Shown piece by piece: positions 22,105 through 43,825 of a stretch of DNA of 64,000 bases. Made by a program: the position numbers and the translations under genes. How positions within the stretch are numbered: the first letter of the stretch is position 1; the number at the start of each line of letters is the position of its first letter. The stretch is from Gammaproteobacteria bacterium. Its GTDB lineage: Bacteria; Pseudomonadota; Gammaproteobacteria; SZUA-152. The notes beneath the pieces were generated by a model. It did no database searches and was not told the DNA's origin. It saw only the letters and a program-made list of their open reading frames with translations. The stretch lies in assembly GCA_029882975.1 (NCBI GenBank), contig JAOUJW010000009.1, positions 62,001-126,000 of the forward strand, given 5' to 3'.

Positions 22105-24531
22105 ATGGATATATCCCAAATAAACAGCGACTTAAACCTTTTAACCATATTGAATCATGCCGTCAACCAGCATGCGATTATTTCCATGACAGACAAAGAT
22201 GGCGCCATTATTTATGTCAATGAACTGTTTTGCCAAGTCAGCGGTTATTCCAAAAAAGAATTATTGGGCAAAAATCATAATGTGGTCCGCTCTCAAGCCC
22301 ATGACACCAGGTTCTATCAAGATTTATGGCGTACGATAACCCAAGGCAAAACTTGGGAAGGCGTGATTCAAAATCGTCGCAAAGACGGCCAACCGTACTG
22401 GGTACAATCCACCATAGTTCCCATCCTGGATAACCACAAAAAACCCATACGGTATATCTCTGTGCGCACGGACGTCACCCAACGGGAACGGATGCGAGAC
22501 GCCATGGAGCGCATGGCCACTGCCGATACCAGCCATGATGCTTTTAACGCCATAGCCAAAGCCATCTGCATCGGCCTGGACTGTCGATCTTGCCTAATAG
22601 CTCAATTTGTAACCCAAGATACGCAAACGCAAATAATCGGCAGCTTCGATCAAACACCGGATGTTGCACCAGCTAACGGCACACTATCCCCCGTTTTGCC
22701 ACACAGCATTGCGGCTCATCTGCTTAACAAGGAACTGAGCTTGCTTGTCAACAACGCCGCTCACATGTACCCCGATGATCCCATACTCACCCGGCAAACC
22801 AGTGCTCTAATGGCGCAGGCCATACTGGATAATAGCAACAAGGTAATCGGACTTATATGCGCCACAAGCGGGCAACCCTTTATTCACTCGGGAACAGAAA
22901 ACAGTTTGCTTAAGCTGGCCGCCAAACGTACCAGCCTGGAGTTACGCCGCGCGGAGTTCGAGCACGTGATACGGGAACGGGAACAGATGCTGGCCGCCGC
23001 ACAACGTCTGGCTAAACTGGGTAGTTGGATCTTGGACTATCGCAACGGGAGTTTACATTGGTCCGAGGAAGTCTACCGAATTTTTGAGTTAGACCCAAAG
23101 ACCACCACACCATCCTATGAATTGTTTTTACAAATGGTACACCCCGACGACCGCGAGCTGGTGCAACAGGCTTACGACAATTCCCTGCAAGACCGGAATG
23201 ACTATTCCGTTCTGCATCGCTTGTGCCTGGAGGGAAAGCGCGAAAAATGGCTGCATGAACGCGGCGAAACCAGTTTCGATTCACAAGGTCACCCCATACG
23301 CAGCATCGGTTATGTTCACGATGTCACCGAACGTAAGCTTATAGAGAAAGAGCTCAGGGACAGCGAACAACGCTTTGACATCTCCCAGACCTTTGGCAAC
23401 ATCGGCTCATTTGAATGGAATATAGTGACCAACCAGGTACTTTGGTCCACCCAAATGTGGTCCATCCTGGGGTTGGATCGTAGCATCCCACCCAGTTTTG
23501 ATGCCTATATAGAAAGAGTACATCCTGACGACGTCGATATATTGCAAAAAGCTGTTTTACAGTGCGTGGAAACCGCGACGGATGTGGATATAACCTATCG
23601 ACTGATCCACCCCGGAGGTGAATTACATTGGGTCCGTGGCCGCGCCAATATCCAACACAATGGCGAAACAAAACGTATGCTGGGTATAATCATAGATATT
23701 GATAAACAAAAGCTGGCTGAAGATGAACAATCCCGGCTGCAAACACAACTGCAGCAGGCGCAAAAAATGGAATCCATCGGCCAACTCGCTGCCGGTATTG
23801 CTCATGATTTCAATAATATGCTCTCAACTATAGTGGGTTATACGGATTTGTGCAAAGAACTATATGTGGATCCGCAAAGCAAACCCGCCCAGTATCTAAA
23901 TGAAGTTTTGAAAGCGGCAGAACAGGGACGTAATCTGGTCCAACAGATGCTGACTTTTGGCCGAGCTGCACCGGGTCATCGCAAAGCCGTACTCGCCGGG
24001 CGTTTGTTGAAGGAAATCTGCAAACTGCTCCACGCAACCTTGCCATCCCGAATTGCTTTGAAACCCCAAGTAGAGCAGGAATGCCACGTGTTAAGCGATC
24101 CGGTACAATTGCACCAGGTGGTCACCAATCTGATATTGAACGCCAGAGACGCTCTGGGACCCCATGGAGACATCCGTTTGATCTTGCTACCTAAAACCTA
24201 TATTGAGGGAACATGCAGTAGCTGTGCACAACCGTTCCGAGGTGATTTTGTGGAAATATGTGTAGAAGACAATGGTCACGGAATCTCAGAGGACAACCTG
24301 ACACATATATTTGAACCGTTTTTTTCCACCAAACAAATGGGAAAAGGCAGCGGCATGGGCTTACCCATGGTACATGGCATTTTGCATCAGCAGGACAACC
24401 ACATCATTGTGGAATCGCAACTGGGCCAAGGCACAAAATTTCGACTGTTTCTACAACCGGCTTTAGAAAACGAAACAACGATAACACCGACCAAAACCGA
24501 GAAACCGCTGCCGCAGACCGTTAGCGAGTAG
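22105..24531 (+). CDS. multi-PAS/GAF sensor histidine kinase
   Basis: An 808-residue soluble kinase. In order: PAS with PAC (about 20-130, GKNHNVVRSQAHD and RRKDGQPYWVQSTIVPI), GAF (about 150-285), a second PAS/PAC (about 300-415, SWILDYRNGSLHWSEEVYRI), a third PAS/PAC (about 425-535, GSFEWNIVTNQVLWSTQMW), a HisKA domain with the phosphorylated histidine near 567 in GIAHDFNNMLSTIVGYTDL, and a catalytic domain with VEDNGHGIS, IFEPFFSTK and GSGMGLPMV. No membrane segment and no receiver domain are present, and no response regulator is next to it. The signal is unknown; PAS type suggests redox, light or a small molecule. A 17-bp tandem repeat begins soon after its stop. Confidence 0.93.
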   Translation: MDISQINSDLNLLTILNHAVNQHAIISMTDKDGAIIYVNELFCQVSGYSKKELLGKNHNVVRSQAHDTRFYQDLWRTITQGKTWEGVIQNRRKDGQPYWVQSTIVPILDNHKKPIRYISVRTDVTQRERMRDAMERMATADTSHDAFNAIAKAICIGLDCRSCLIAQFVTQDTQTQIIGSFDQTPDVAPANGTLSPVLPHSIAAHLLNKELSLLVNNAAHMYPDDPILTRQTSALMAQAILDNSNKVIGLICATSGQPFIHSGTENSLLKLAAKRTSLELRRAEFEHVIREREQMLAAAQRLAKLGSWILDYRNGSLHWSEEVYRIFELDPKTTTPSYELFLQMVHPDDRELVQQAYDNSLQDRNDYSVLHRLCLEGKREKWLHERGETSFDSQGHPIRSIGYVHDVTERKLIEKELRDSEQRFDISQTFGNIGSFEWNIVTNQVLWSTQMWSILGLDRSIPPSFDAYIERVHPDDVDILQKAVLQCVETATDVDITYRLIHPGGELHWVRGRANIQHNGETKRMLGIIIDIDKQKLAEDEQSRLQTQLQQAQKMESIGQLAAGIAHDFNNMLSTIVGYTDLCKELYVDPQSKPAQYLNEVLKAAEQGRNLVQQMLTFGRAAPGHRKAVLAGRLLKEICKLLHATLPSRIALKPQVEQECHVLSDPVQLHQVVTNLILNARDALGPHGDIRLILLPKTYIEGTCSSCAQPFRGDFVEICVEDNGHGISEDNLTHIFEPFFSTKQMGKGSGMGLPMVHGILHQQDNHIIVESQLGQGTKFRLFLQPALENETTITPTKTEKPLPQTVSE

Positions 24532-24535
24532 TGAG

Positions 24536-24630
24536 TCTTTAGCTAAAGAGCCCTCAGCGCGTAAGAGCCCTCAGCGCGTAAGAGCCCTCAGCGCGTAAGA
24601 GCCCTCAGCGCATAAGAGCCCTTTGCGCAC
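24536..24630. repeat. 14-bp palindrome and five-copy 17-bp tandem repeat
   Basis: The palindrome TCTTTAGCTAAAGA (24536-24549) begins five bases after the stop of the multi-PAS kinase gene. Overlapping it, from 24546 to 24630, come five 17-bp units AAGAGCCCTCAGCGCGT: the first three identical, the fourth with one change, the fifth diverged at its right half (TTTGCGCAC). The array ends six bases from the stop of the convergent gene. It might be a slippage-generated array or part of a transcription end region. It has no spacers, so it is not CRISPR. Confidence 0.9.
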
Positions 24631-24635
24631 AAGCC

Positions 24636-25424
24636 CTATAATTCCAATTTACGGTCTATTTCCTTCGCCATGGCGTCAGCCTCCTTGAGGTGTTTACCCT
24701 TGGGATGGGAACGTTTATAACCGTTGATTTCTTGCCTTGCTTTTTTCAACCAATGCAGTTTGGAACCGGGCTTATCGGCTTTCTTGTATTTATCCCAAGC
24801 ATCGGTCACGTATTTAAAATCGCCATCGTCTTTTTGCACTTTGGCGATCACTGTCCATTTGTCCACCAAAGCTTGAAATTGTACATTGCCGGGATAGGCT
24901 TTTAATATGTCCTGCAAAGAATCCAACACACCCACCGCATTCTGATCCTCATCAGAGTAAATACGCAGTAATTGCTCTTTAGGATCACTCAAAGCGACCA
25001 TGCCACGAAAGCTGCTACCCCAATACAGAGCCACATCCAACAAGGATGCAGGGTCCGGTTTCTCTTCGAAACTGACCCGTACCATGTCCTTTTTCCCGTC
25101 CACAGGAGTAACCACCGGGCTGAGCCGATTGTTTCGGGCCGGTACATCAAAAGGATGCGATACAAACTCCATGCGGTTGGTATCCAGGTCTTTTTGGTAA
25201 ACCAACAGCTCCAACGGCTTGTCTCCCGGCGGAATTACCGGAATCTCAGCAAAGTGTCTATAAAACACATCCCAATGTTTGAAACTTTTGACTCGAACAT
25301 AGTCACCGCCCTGGGTCGCATATACGCCATAGGCTTTTATTGTGGACAGTTCCGCGGCCTTTCCTGCGCTAACAAAACCACACAACAAAATTCCACCCAC
25401 AACCAACCAAAGCTGCTCTTTCAT
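24636..25424 (-). CDS. hypothetical secreted protein with signal peptide
   Basis: A 262-residue protein that starts with a signal peptide (MKEQLWLVVGGILLCGFVSA, cleavage near AGKAAE). The mature part begins with a beta-rich region (about 25-155) and ends in a charged helical segment (about 165-262, SKLHWLKKARQEINGYKRSHPKGKHLKEADAM in three helices), which could be a small TPR-like unit. I know no named family. It should act in the periplasm. Its start region has been duplicated (see the repeat at 25417-25456). It converges with the kinase gene across the 17-bp repeat array. Confidence 0.7.
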   Translation of the reverse strand: MKEQLWLVVGGILLCGFVSAGKAAELSTIKAYGVYATQGGDYVRVKSFKHWDVFYRHFAEIPVIPPGDKPLELLVYQKDLDTNRMEFVSHPFDVPARNNRLSPVVTPVDGKKDMVRVSFEEKPDPASLLDVALYWGSSFRGMVALSDPKEQLLRIYSDEDQNAVGVLDSLQDILKAYPGNVQFQALVDKWTVIAKVQKDDGDFKYVTDAWDKYKKADKPGSKLHWLKKARQEINGYKRSHPKGKHLKEADAMAKEIDRKLEL

Positions 25425-25456
25425 AACATTATCCTATCTTTCATAACATTATCCTA
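25417..25456 (-). repeat. 20-bp direct duplication containing a ribosome-binding site and start codon
   Basis: Two perfect 20-base copies lie head to tail. On the minus strand each reads TAGGATAATGTTATGAAAGA, with the Shine-Dalgarno-like TAGGAT six bases before ATG. The inner copy supplies the start of the 262-residue gene. The outer copy creates a leader of seven codons, MKDRIML, whose TGA overlaps the gene's ATG. This is read directly from the sequence; an effect on translation is inference. Confidence 0.9.
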
Positions 25457-25524
25457 ATAGACTGATATTAACTGTTATCACAGTTTAACTGCATCCCCGG
25501 GAAAGGCAACCGAAGCGCCTGCGC

Positions 25525-27072
25525 CTATTTTCCCAAAGACTCCCATACATGTTCCGCAAACCCGACACCCGCTTCTGCAAAATAGTTATACGCATCGTCA
25601 GCGCCCGCCTCCAACACTGAGACCACATCCTCCGGAAACACGCCCGTGGCGCTCACCCGTCCTTTGTAGCCCCGTTTACGCAATTGAATAACAGCGGCCC
25701 TGTTAGCTGCGACGTCCGGCATCGCCAGCATGATAGCTTCCACACTATCGAGGTTTATATTGCTCCACAAGTCCGAATCTTCTGCGTCAGCATATAAGAC
25801 ACGACGTCCTGCACTACGATGTTTCTCCACCTTACCCGGATCCGAGTCCAGGCCGATGACACGCATTTGACGTTGGTTGAGAAAATCATAAGCCCCTGTA
25901 CCCACACGCCCCATCCCGACAATCATCAGATTCGAGCTGCCAATGGATATGGGCACATCATCCGGATGCCGTCGAGCCAGTTCAAATCGACAAAGCAGCG
26001 AAGCGTAGCGATCGTATAGAGTATGGGCTAAGCGATTAGCCGGAGCCGCCACCACAAAGGACAGGGCCACTACCACTGCCAACAGCACCAACCAGTCGTT
26101 CCCCAGCCAGCCGTTGTCTACCGCCACGTTGGCTGCGATCAACCCAAACTCACTAAAAGTGGTCAAACTTAAGCCTGCCAATAACGCGGTGCGCGCCCTT
26201 ACCCCAAAGGACAGCAACACAAAAAAGAATAGAACCATTTTCACCGGCAGCAGTAGCAACAGTAACAGCCCGAAACCAAAAGTCTCCCAAGTAGGGATGC
26301 CGGACATACCAATCTGTAGAAAAAAGCCAATGAGGAAAATCTCTTTTAACCCCCACAAGGCGTTGGACAACTCCGATGCCCGGTCATGCCCGGCCAACAA
26401 CACCCCCAAAACCACGGCCCCCAATTCTGCACTCAAACCCAGCGCGTGAAACCCGGCTCCACCTGCGACTAAAGCCAAAACCAAACCAAACAGGAGCATC
26501 AAATCGTCGTGACCACTTAAGTCCAACAACTTATGAATAAGACCACGGAGCAAGGGTAAGGCGAATATCAACAACGCCCAGGGTGAGGGCATTTGTCCAC
26601 TGGCGGTACTTAAAAAAGCCACCGCCACCAGATCCTGCATAATCAAAATACCAATAGCAACACGACCGTGAAAGGCGCGCAGCTCACGCTTTTCTTCCAA
26701 CACTTTGGCTGCCACAACCGTACTGGAAAAACTCAGCGCTAAGGCGATAACTACGGAAGTGGTCCAACTGCTCCCCACAGAGAAATACACCAAAACACTT
26801 ACGAAAGCTGAAAAAACCACCATATGCAACAAGGTGCCCAGCAACACCTCGGACCTGGCCACGTTCTTCAAACGCAGTTTCAGGCCCACGCTGAATAACA
26901 ACAGCAAAACCCCTGTCTCCGCCACGTGTTTGATCATGTCGCTGCCGGATATCCCGTATCCATTTAGAGCAAATCCGGCCACCAAATACCCTACCAATGG
27001 TGGCAGACCGATGGAGCGTGCTGTCAATCCCATGAGGAACGCAATGGCTATATATATCGTGAACACTTGCAC
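25525..27072 (-). CDS. CPA2 cation:proton antiporter with RCK-N domain (Kef/YbaL-like)
   Basis: A 515-residue inner-membrane antiporter of the KefB/KefC/YbaL type. The first 370 residues form about twelve membrane segments, with GLPPLVGYLVAGFALNGYG, LLFSVGLKLRLKN and GAVVLGVLLAGHD as typical elements. A C-terminal TrkA-N (RCK) domain starts near residue 385 (NLMIVGMGRVGTGAYDFL) with the NAD-binding GxGxxG and the acidic VIGLDSDPGKVEKH. It should export potassium in exchange for protons, probably gated by nucleotide or redox state. It is divergent from the DUF523 gene. No KefF/KefG partner is seen. Confidence 0.92.
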   Translation of the reverse strand: MQVFTIYIAIAFLMGLTARSIGLPPLVGYLVAGFALNGYGISGSDMIKHVAETGVLLLLFSVGLKLRLKNVARSEVLLGTLLHMVVFSAFVSVLVYFSVGSSWTTSVVIALALSFSSTVVAAKVLEEKRELRAFHGRVAIGILIMQDLVAVAFLSTASGQMPSPWALLIFALPLLRGLIHKLLDLSGHDDLMLLFGLVLALVAGGAGFHALGLSAELGAVVLGVLLAGHDRASELSNALWGLKEIFLIGFFLQIGMSGIPTWETFGFGLLLLLLLPVKMVLFFFVLLSFGVRARTALLAGLSLTTFSEFGLIAANVAVDNGWLGNDWLVLLAVVVALSFVVAAPANRLAHTLYDRYASLLCRFELARRHPDDVPISIGSSNLMIVGMGRVGTGAYDFLNQRQMRVIGLDSDPGKVEKHRSAGRRVLYADAEDSDLWSNINLDSVEAIMLAMPDVAANRAAVIQLRKRGYKGRVSATGVFPEDVVSVLEAGADDAYNYFAEAGVGFAEHVWESLGK

Positions 27073-28742: not shown

Positions 28743-29500
28743 TGTCTAAGCCGATATCCGGTTTTAAACATCCACCAAACCAACAATAAACAGGCTCCCA
28801 AGAACACCAAAACCATAGCCAGACTGATTCCCACATCCACATCCGCCACTTCAAAAAAACTCCAGCGAAATCCACTGATCAAATACACCACCGGATTAAA
28901 CAAACTTACCGTCTGCCAAAAAGGTGGCAACATATTGATGGAGTAAAAACTCCCACCAAGGAAAACCAAAGGTGTAATGACCAACATGGGGATTAATTGC
29001 AGTTTCTCGAAATTCGTAGCCCACAGGCCGATGATAAAACCAAACAACGCAAAAGTGATGCAAGTCAGCACCAAAAACCCCACCATCCAAACCGGGTGAG
29101 CGATTTCCAGCGGTACAAAAAAACCTGCCGTACCCAGGATAATTAACCCAATAATCATTGACTTACTTGCTGCCGCGCCTACATAGCCCAGTAAAACCTC
29201 AAAAAAGGATACTGGGGCGGATAACACCTCATAGATGCTCCCGGTAAACTTAGGGAAAAATATTCCAAAAGAGGCGTTAGCCGTACTTTGGCTCAAAAGC
29301 ACCAACATTATCAATCCAGGGACAATAAATGCCCCATAGGAAACTCCTTCTATGGCCTCAATGCGGGTACCAATCGCTGAGCCGAACACTACAAAATAAA
29401 GCACAGTAGAGATAACCGGTGAAACGAAAGTCTGCAATAGGGTTTCCCAGGCTCGTAGCATCTCAAACTTGTAGATTACGCGAATGGCGTACAAATTCAT
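28739..29500 (-). CDS. ABC-2 type transporter permease (YadH-like)
   Basis: A 253-residue inner-membrane permease with six membrane segments of the ABC-2 type. It resembles YadH: the N-terminal [22 protein letters not shown], the central [14 protein letters not shown], and the family loop [24 protein letters not shown]-terminal segment [32 protein letters not shown] is standard; only its parts are quoted. It overlaps the ATPase gene by four bases (ATGA) and so forms an exporter with it. The exported molecule is unknown. Confidence 0.93.
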
Positions 29501-30483
29501 GACTGCTTCACCAAATTCACAAAAATTTCCTCCAACGAAGTCTTGGTGCTGAACACGTCTTTAATGGTTAATGGAGTCTGCGCCACTGCTCGCAGCAGCG
29601 CATCGATGCCCGTATCCTGCTTGCGTGGATCATAGGTATAGACCCAGTGACAGGCATCTTTACCAGGCTCCAAATTCCACTGACTAAGTTCCACAGGCAG
29701 CTGCACCACCTCAGTCTCCAATTGCAGGATCAACTGGCGTTTACCCAGTTTGTGCATCAATGCTTCTTTTTCCTCTACCAATAAAAGCTCACCCTGGTTG
29801 ATAACACCCACCCGGTCAGCAATAGCTTCGGCTTCTTCAATGTAGTGCGTAGTGAGGATGATGGTCACTCCGGACTCCCGCAGTCGCCTTACCAAAGCCC
29901 ACATATCTTTGCGCAGCTCTACATCCACACCAGCGGTGGGTTCGTCCAGAAACAATATTCTAGGTTCATGCGCCAGCGCTTTCCCGATCAGAACCCGGCG
30001 CTTCATCCCACCGGACAGCTCCATTAACATATTATTTCTTTTATCCCACAACGCCAGATCTTTGAGAGTACGCTCCAAGTGCTGTGCATCGGGCTTTTTC
30101 CCAAACAAGCCTCGGCTAAAACTCAAAGAATTCCACACCGTATCAAACGCACCCAAGGTGAGTTCTTGCGGTACCAAACCGATCAGAGATCGGCTCATAC
30201 GATAGTCCTTTATGATGTCGTATCCATCAACGGTGACCGAACCGGAACTGGGATTGACAATGCCGCAGATAATTGAGATCAGCGTGGTTTTCCCTGCACC
30301 GTTGGGCCCCAGCAGCGCCAGAATTTCTCCCTGGAAAATATCCAAATCAATATTTTTCAGGGCTTGATAACCGGTATCGTATGTTTTACTCAGACTGGAA
30401 ATGGAAACTATGGGTTCAGATGGATTCAATGAGCGCGTGTTCCTTAGTGGATTTACAGGGTTAGAAAACGTTATATAACACAC
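29497..30483 (-). CDS. ABC transporter ATP-binding protein (YadG-like)
   Basis: A 328-residue ATPase of the ABC-2 exporter family (YadG/CcmA-like). It has Walker [10 protein letters not shown], the signature [20 protein letters not shown] with SGGMKRR, Walker [14 protein letters not shown] and the switch histidine in [19 protein letters not shown]-terminal extension of about 80 residues (from [11 protein letters not shown]) is common in the DRR/YadG group. It drives the YadH-like permease that overlaps it. The first 25 residues lack family signals, so the true start may be a few codons later. Confidence 0.93.
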
Positions 30484-41887: not shown

Positions 41888-42106
41888 ATGAATATGCGTA
41901 ACAAAACAGACAGTAAAGCAGAAAGCAACGTTTCGCCGCTCGACAAAGAGGCCGTCTTAATGCGGTCTTTAGATGACCAAAAAAACATCGCCGCCAGACA
42001 AGCCCGAGGCAACCTAAGTTTATCGAGGGGCTGGTATAAAACCCAAAACGAAATTGACAGCGAAAGAGAGCATATACTCTCAATAAAATCTTTACTGTTT
42101 AAGTGA
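41888..42106 (+). CDS. possible small protein running into a tandem repeat
   Basis: A 72-codon frame starting MNMRNKTDSKAESNVSPLDKEA and ending ...ILSIKSLLFK. It is hydrophilic and charged with no known motif. The stop TGA (42104-42106) lies inside the first 16-base unit of the tandem repeat that follows, so the repeat was built from or includes the end of this gene. A weak GGAG-like site lies upstream. It may be a small regulator or an inactive remnant; evidence for expression is lacking. Confidence 0.4.
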   Translation: MNMRNKTDSKAESNVSPLDKEAVLMRSLDDQKNIAARQARGNLSLSRGWYKTQNEIDSEREHILSIKSLLFK

Positions 42107-42190
42107 AACGCTGTTTAAGTGAAACGCTGTTTAAGTGAAACGCTGTTTAAGTGAAGCGCTGTTTAAGTGAAGCGCTGTTTAAGCGAAGCC
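42095..42190. repeat. 16-bp tandem repeat, six units
   Basis: Six 16-base units starting CTGTTTAAGTGAAACG run from 42095 to 42190. Units 1 to 3 are identical, 4 and 5 differ at one base (GAAGCG) and the last has two further changes. The first unit holds the stop codon of the small ORF. Since 16 is not a multiple of three, the units change frame along the array. It has no spacers. Confidence 0.9.
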
Positions 42191-43388: not shown

Positions 43389-43825
43389 TTTCTCTGTTAA
43401 GGAATAGGGAGGAGATATATCTTCGTCCGAAACACTTTCGAATTAAGGCAGGAAAATTTATAAACAGAAAATATTGATGGCCGCTCTCGCACATCCTTGT
43501 GCTTCGCGGCACCTGTACATCCATGTGCAATGGCCGCTCTCGCACATCCTTGTGCTCGCGGCATAAGTACATCTCGGCAACCGCTCCTGGTGCAAATAAA
43601 TTCGAACCGAACAACTGAGCAAAAAGCTTAGTATCGTTTGAAGGATAAAATTCTAGAAAGGGTTTGGTGGCCGCTCTCGCACATCCTTGTGCTTCGCGGC
43701 ACCTGTACATCCTTGTACAATGGCCGCTCTCGCACATCCTTGTGCTTCGCGGCACCTGTACATCCTTGTACAATGGCCGCTCTCGCACATCCTTGTGCTT
43801 CGCGGCACCTGTATGTCGTATTCAA
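43389..43825. other. gene-free stretch holding two repeat blocks
   Basis: A 437-base stretch between the CdiI-like gene and the tRNA. It contains the 53-bp repeat in two blocks (43478-43563 and 43668-43826) with an unrelated spacer of about 100 bases. The apparent ORFs across it are made of the repeats themselves, since no stop codon occurs in any minus-strand frame of a full unit. Confidence 0.6.
43478..43563. repeat. 53-bp hairpin repeat, distal block (one full and one partial unit)
   Basis: Unit 43478-43530 is complete and carries a changed second loop (TCCA in TGTACATCCATGTGCA). A second unit begins at 43531 but is degraded after the first hairpin (one base deleted in the TGTGCTCGCGGC part), ending near 43563. 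Period is 53 bases, as in the proximal block. Confidence 0.85.

Follow-up and report, generated by a model that had tools for sequence, protein, structure and literature searches.

A 20-bp tandem duplication spanning a ribosome-binding site and start codon, and the seven-codon frame that it places ahead of a gene for a probably exported protein

Genes at the locus

The window (the whole stretch of DNA that was analysed, 64 000 nt of a gammaproteobacterial contig) carries on its minus strand a 262-aa ORF at 24636..25424. A monovalent cation:proton antiporter-like gene with a TrkA_N domain (25525..27072, minus strand) lies upstream of it, co-directed, and ends 100 bp before the ATG of the ORF; the two genes may be co-transcribed. 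The N-terminus of the 262-aa product, MKEQLWLVVGGILLCGFVSAGKA-AELS, resembles by eye a Sec signal peptide, and the protein is probably exported. The GC content of its gene is 0.469 (0.488 in the window).

We found no Pfam or NCBIfam family for the protein at E ≤ 0.001. Its predicted structure (mean pLDDT 87.0, pTM 0.73) has a beta-rich domain followed by long C-terminal helices; comparison of this model with the PDB returned nothing at E ≤ 0.001, the best match being CopC (1.5e-02, TM 0.21 on the query). Alignments with homologues from elsewhere in the class start in the same region and include a common YGVY stretch at residues 32-35, which supports the downstream of two candidate ATG codons described below as the true start.

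The duplicated unit

The start region of this ORF consists of 2.0 perfect copies of the 20-mer TAGGATAATGTTATGAAAGA (minus strand), set head to tail without a gap at 25456-25417, with period 20. The downstream copy (25417..25436) carries the Shine-Dalgarno-like AGGA (25435-25432) and the ATG (25424-25422) of the 262-aa ORF; the upstream copy (25437..25456) carries a second such pair, AGGA at 25455-25452 and ATG at 25444-25442. The distance from AGGA to ATG is 7 nt in either copy. Both the perfect 20-bp duplication and the second Shine-Dalgarno and ATG, as claimed in a sequence-only reading of this DNA, are therefore present. From base composition, the number of perfect 20-bp tandems of period 20 expected in the window by chance is ∼6e-8; the adjacent identical copies are thus beyond chance and represent a real short tandem duplication. 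In the genome (5,184,259 bases in 59 contigs, searched with up to three mismatches) the 20-mer was found only at this one place.

The leader frame and the stop/start overlap

The upstream ATG opens the predicted frame ATG AAA GAT AGG ATA ATG TTA TGA (MKDRIML, 25444-25421; 25421..25444, minus strand). It shows one feature of a leader ORF, a start codon and a ribosome-binding site of its own (AGGA 7 nt before the ATG), and one of a coupled pair, an upstream stop overlapping a downstream start: its TGA (25423-25421) shares two bases with the main ATG (25424-25422), the overlap reading ATGA. The seven-codon frame with an overlapping stop described in the earlier reading is therefore present. A Shine-Dalgarno motif lies inside the frame, just ahead of the start of the gene. 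Since ATG-TTA-TGA is contained in each single copy of the unit, a frame of two codons ending on that overlapping stop (25421..25429, minus strand) exists even without the duplication; AGGA is only 2 nt before its ATG.

We assessed how readily such a layout arises by duplicating in silico the start regions of the 32 window ATG ORFs of at least 200 aa with periods of 17-30 (2816 cases), the start being taken as the first ATG of each frame, which for some ORFs may be wrong. A stop overlapping the start was produced in 392 of the 2816 duplications (14%). This outcome is common because an ATGA start and a period of the form 3n+2 are sufficient for it, unless an earlier stop intervenes; an A follows the ATG in 16 of the 32 ORFs. 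Existing layouts of this kind were surveyed as well. A short frame preceded by a Shine-Dalgarno motif, with its stop overlapping or adjoining the start, was observed for four of the 74 window ATG ORFs of at least 100 aa, this gene included, in a survey that allowed GTG and TTG starts for the short frame and in which many of the ORFs are spurious; one of the four is merely the 3′ end of an ABC-transporter ATPase ORF (29497-30483). Since in-silico duplications and other ORFs of the window give such frames, the coupled layout is largely arithmetic, an easy by-product of duplicating a start region. The earlier suggestion that the layout permits translational coupling is a fair one; 14% of the simulated duplications yield the same arrangement, and none of the analyses made here gave a sign of selection for it. 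The simulated rate suggests that such leader frames arise readily.

Tandem repeats elsewhere in the genome

Perfect tandems with periods of 12-150 were collected from 464 kb of sequence, made up of the window and 20 further segments of 20 kb each. We observed 16 rows, 10 of them with a period of at least 15, versus none in one Markov-1 random replicate. Five of the 16 rows touch a contig start or fall in the 76 bases that follow it, a position favoured by the sampling of contig starts. When these are set aside 11 rows remain, of which the window holds five (two belonging to one array), and four of the 11 are, like the present one, two-copy rows (2.0-2.1 copies). In this genome short tandem repeats readily form or persist.

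A 17-bp array of AAGAGCCCTCAGCGCGT (4.5 copies, 24546-24622) is situated just 3′ of the 262-aa gene and belongs to a dispersed minisatellite family spanning other contigs: AAGAGCCNTCAGCGNGT has 20 exact matches in the genome versus none in a reversed control, and 99 versus three at up to two mismatches. Most of these matches fall in arrays whose period is ∼18 bp; every array has a unit variant of its own, and several are situated at contig ends. A 16-bp unit, CTGTTTAAGTGAAACG, is present in 5.8 copies at 42095-42187, and a 53-bp unit in 2.8 perfect copies at 43668-43813, where it overlaps a minus-strand ORF of 136 aa.

Homologues and the age of the duplication

A protein scan of a collection of genome contigs gave no relative of the 262-aa protein. 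Its gene was found in its own genome and three of 95 other genomes, and, in an overlapping sample of the class, in its own and eight of 368 others; none of 23 genomes of the same genus or family has it. The family thus sampled is one of probably exported proteins with no Pfam or NCBIfam model, patchily distributed in the class, and one genome (G260, loci L033 and L036) has two adjacent copies.

Relatives of the antiporter gene were found in 21 of 24 genomes (own included), the nearest with 63% identity. No copy of the 262-aa gene was seen beside the antiporter gene at 23 loci in other genomes or at the 81 loci of a second check (L008 is counted in both sets), with flanks of 1.5-3 kb or shorter searched and with paralogues at some of the 23 loci. 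As the 262-aa gene was found neither in the genomes of the same genus or family nor beside the antiporter gene at these loci, no counterpart of the exact site was available for comparison.

What could be compared are nine homologous loci, all distant (24-31% protein identity); in 261 bp examined no perfect tandem of at least 9 bp was found in any of the nine. The start codon could be placed in seven of these loci; the segments of two others, L005 and L006, begin at the edge of the match. With identities of just 24-31% these homologues are too distant for dating, and absence of the tandem from them says little. The two copies show 0 differences in 20 positions, which bounds their divergence at ∼14% (95%), so identity of the copies alone is no proof of recency. 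The earlier reading had described the duplication as apparently recent. The identity of the copies agrees with this, as does the failure to find the tandem at the nine distant loci, but 20 bases still allow divergence of up to ∼14%.

RNA folding and access of the ribosome

The unit contains the quasi-palindrome AUAAUGUUAU, and therefore the two copies can pair with each other. The resulting AUAAUGUUAU/AUAAUGUUAU hairpin has a stem of 10 pairs (eight A-U and two G-U) and holds the second AGG in its loop. A 62-nt stretch folds at -10.1 kcal/mol versus -5.3 kcal/mol without the upstream copy, a gain of -4.8 kcal/mol. For this stretch, which begins with the upstream copy and extends into the gene, z was -2.60, with five of 200 shuffles as good; with 34 more upstream bases z became -1.03, with 29 of 200 shuffles as good. 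Among in-silico duplications at 31 other ORFs the gain was mid-ranking (17 gained more, one the same and 13 less). The hairpin was rejected as a mark of selection, given that most of the comparable in-silico duplications fold equally well or better. A search of Rfam with window positions 24300-25800 gave no match at E ≤ 1, and a known structured RNA leader was rejected accordingly.

In a 176-nt context the mean unpaired probability was 0.34 for the AGGA of the gene and 0.73 for its ATG; for the upstream pair the values were 0.36 (AGGA) and 0.34 (ATG). Either AGGA pairs with an assumed 16S tail sequence at -4.0 kcal/mol, a middling value that ranks 17th of 32 window ORFs.

An effect of the duplication on translation of the 262-aa gene, through coupling or through competition for ribosomes, is possible in principle. 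One could propose that the seven-codon frame functions as an upstream ORF: translating it would open the hairpin between the copies, termination-reinitiation would feed the gene, and the duplication would thereby raise or condition expression. This proposal draws on the ATGA overlap with a Shine-Dalgarno motif inside the leader frame, on the hairpin with the second AGG in its loop and on the unpaired probability of 0.34 for the AGGA of the gene; E. coli provides documented cases of coupling at overlaps of this type (PMC6728339), and effects of short ORFs on a downstream gene are documented as well (PMC8708949). Yet the stem, rich in A-U pairs, is worth just -4.8 kcal/mol, as is typical of any such duplication, and the ATG of the gene is mostly open. 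Moreover, the tandem was seen at none of the nine homologous loci, distant as they all are, and the layout arises in other ways too, as the four cases among the 74 ORFs indicate (many of these not being real genes). We consider a working upstream ORF unlikely, although it is the strongest of the alternatives to a near-neutral duplication.

Transcription and DNA-level features

Scanning 24400-25800 with a two-hexamer consensus revealed no sigma-70-like promoter near the start of the gene; the single promoter-like site, versus 1.5 expected by chance, is away from this start. A negative result of such a scan neither places a transcript start nor excludes one. Each copy of the unit holds a -10-like GATAAT, which matches TATAAT at five of six positions, together with a quasi-palindrome rich in A and T, ATAATGTTAT; a promoter inside the 20-bp unit is without support from the consensus scan. 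The interval separating the antiporter gene from the duplication contains, 14 nt ahead of the upstream copy, an inverted repeat, AACTGT-GATA-ACAGTT (25470..25485, minus strand), which folds as a 6-bp stem and is possibly an operator or a small hairpin. The 21-mer around it has one genomic occurrence at up to three mismatches.

These elements bear on another explanation, in which the duplication acts at the level of DNA, or precedes the point where transcription begins, so that the additional unit would change a promoter or operator and be left untranslated. The GATAAT and quasi-palindrome of each copy, as well as the nearby inverted repeat, would fit such a role. Against it, neither the scan nor inspection by eye provided a promoter near the start or a good -35 element, and with a co-directed gene 100 bp upstream co-transcription may apply. 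We regard a DNA-level role as improbable.

Origin of the duplication and its likely effect

We think it likely that the duplication is a lineage-specific and probably near-neutral event. Slippage or a similar error would have made the 20-bp tandem, which by chance spans both the Shine-Dalgarno motif and the ATG of the 262-aa ORF. Expression of the gene would still be driven from the downstream copy, with the protein unaltered. If both units are transcribed, the upstream ATG may capture some ribosomes; these would read seven codons and stop at the TGA over the true ATG, where a fraction of them may begin again. Overall, the consequence for the gene is most likely small. Nothing that we computed separates this case from the default outcome of such a duplication. 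Two observations count against this reading: the layout is well formed, with both Shine-Dalgarno-to-ATG spacings equal to 7 nt and an exact overlap of stop and start, and the 62-nt stretch outfolds most of its shuffles, although less clearly so once more upstream bases are included. Use of the frame, should it occur, would illustrate how a gene can gain an element of translational control through a single small slippage event.

A further speculation goes beyond a working upstream ORF. One duplication of a quasi-palindromic start region would have made at once a hairpin over the ribosome-binding site and a coupled seven-codon frame able to open it, i.e. a newborn translational switch, and the copy number (one or two units) could toggle expression. 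We find this very improbable. Least credible of all is an assembly error, with the second copy absent from the organism: the genome is a draft in 59 contigs, several of which start in tandem arrays, but an ordinary short read is long enough to cover the 40-bp array, and the duplication is internal to its contig, away from the ends.

Comparison with known systems

A search of the literature on duplicated ribosome-binding sites and short tandem duplications yielded nothing on point among titles and the opening parts of abstracts, which is no proof of absence. Short perfect tandem duplications, indels of the slippage type, are a known kind of change in bacterial genomes. The present case is like them in having two exact head-to-tail copies in the range of ∼12-20 bp; it differs from the two-copy rows of 13-16 bp in our sample (L042), which coincide with or follow an ORF end, in that a start codon is spanned.

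Gene pairs with overlapping stop and start codons (ATGA) are coupled by termination-reinitiation in E. coli (PMC6728339). The locus described here shares with them the overlap and a Shine-Dalgarno motif that precedes the second start closely and is itself part of the first frame. In contrast to those pairs of full genes, the upstream frame here is a predicted one of seven codons that arose by duplication.

Bacterial minigenes and short upstream ORFs include mg2 of axe-txe and, cited in the same source, pssL, yoaL, baxL, argL and the ycbK dipeptide ORFs (PMC8708949). Like them, the frame at our locus is very short, has its own Shine-Dalgarno motif and lies near or overlaps a downstream gene. 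For those minigenes the source gives mutational tests or cites them, whereas the seven-codon frame is a predicted one, placed ahead of a gene whose product is probably an exported protein.
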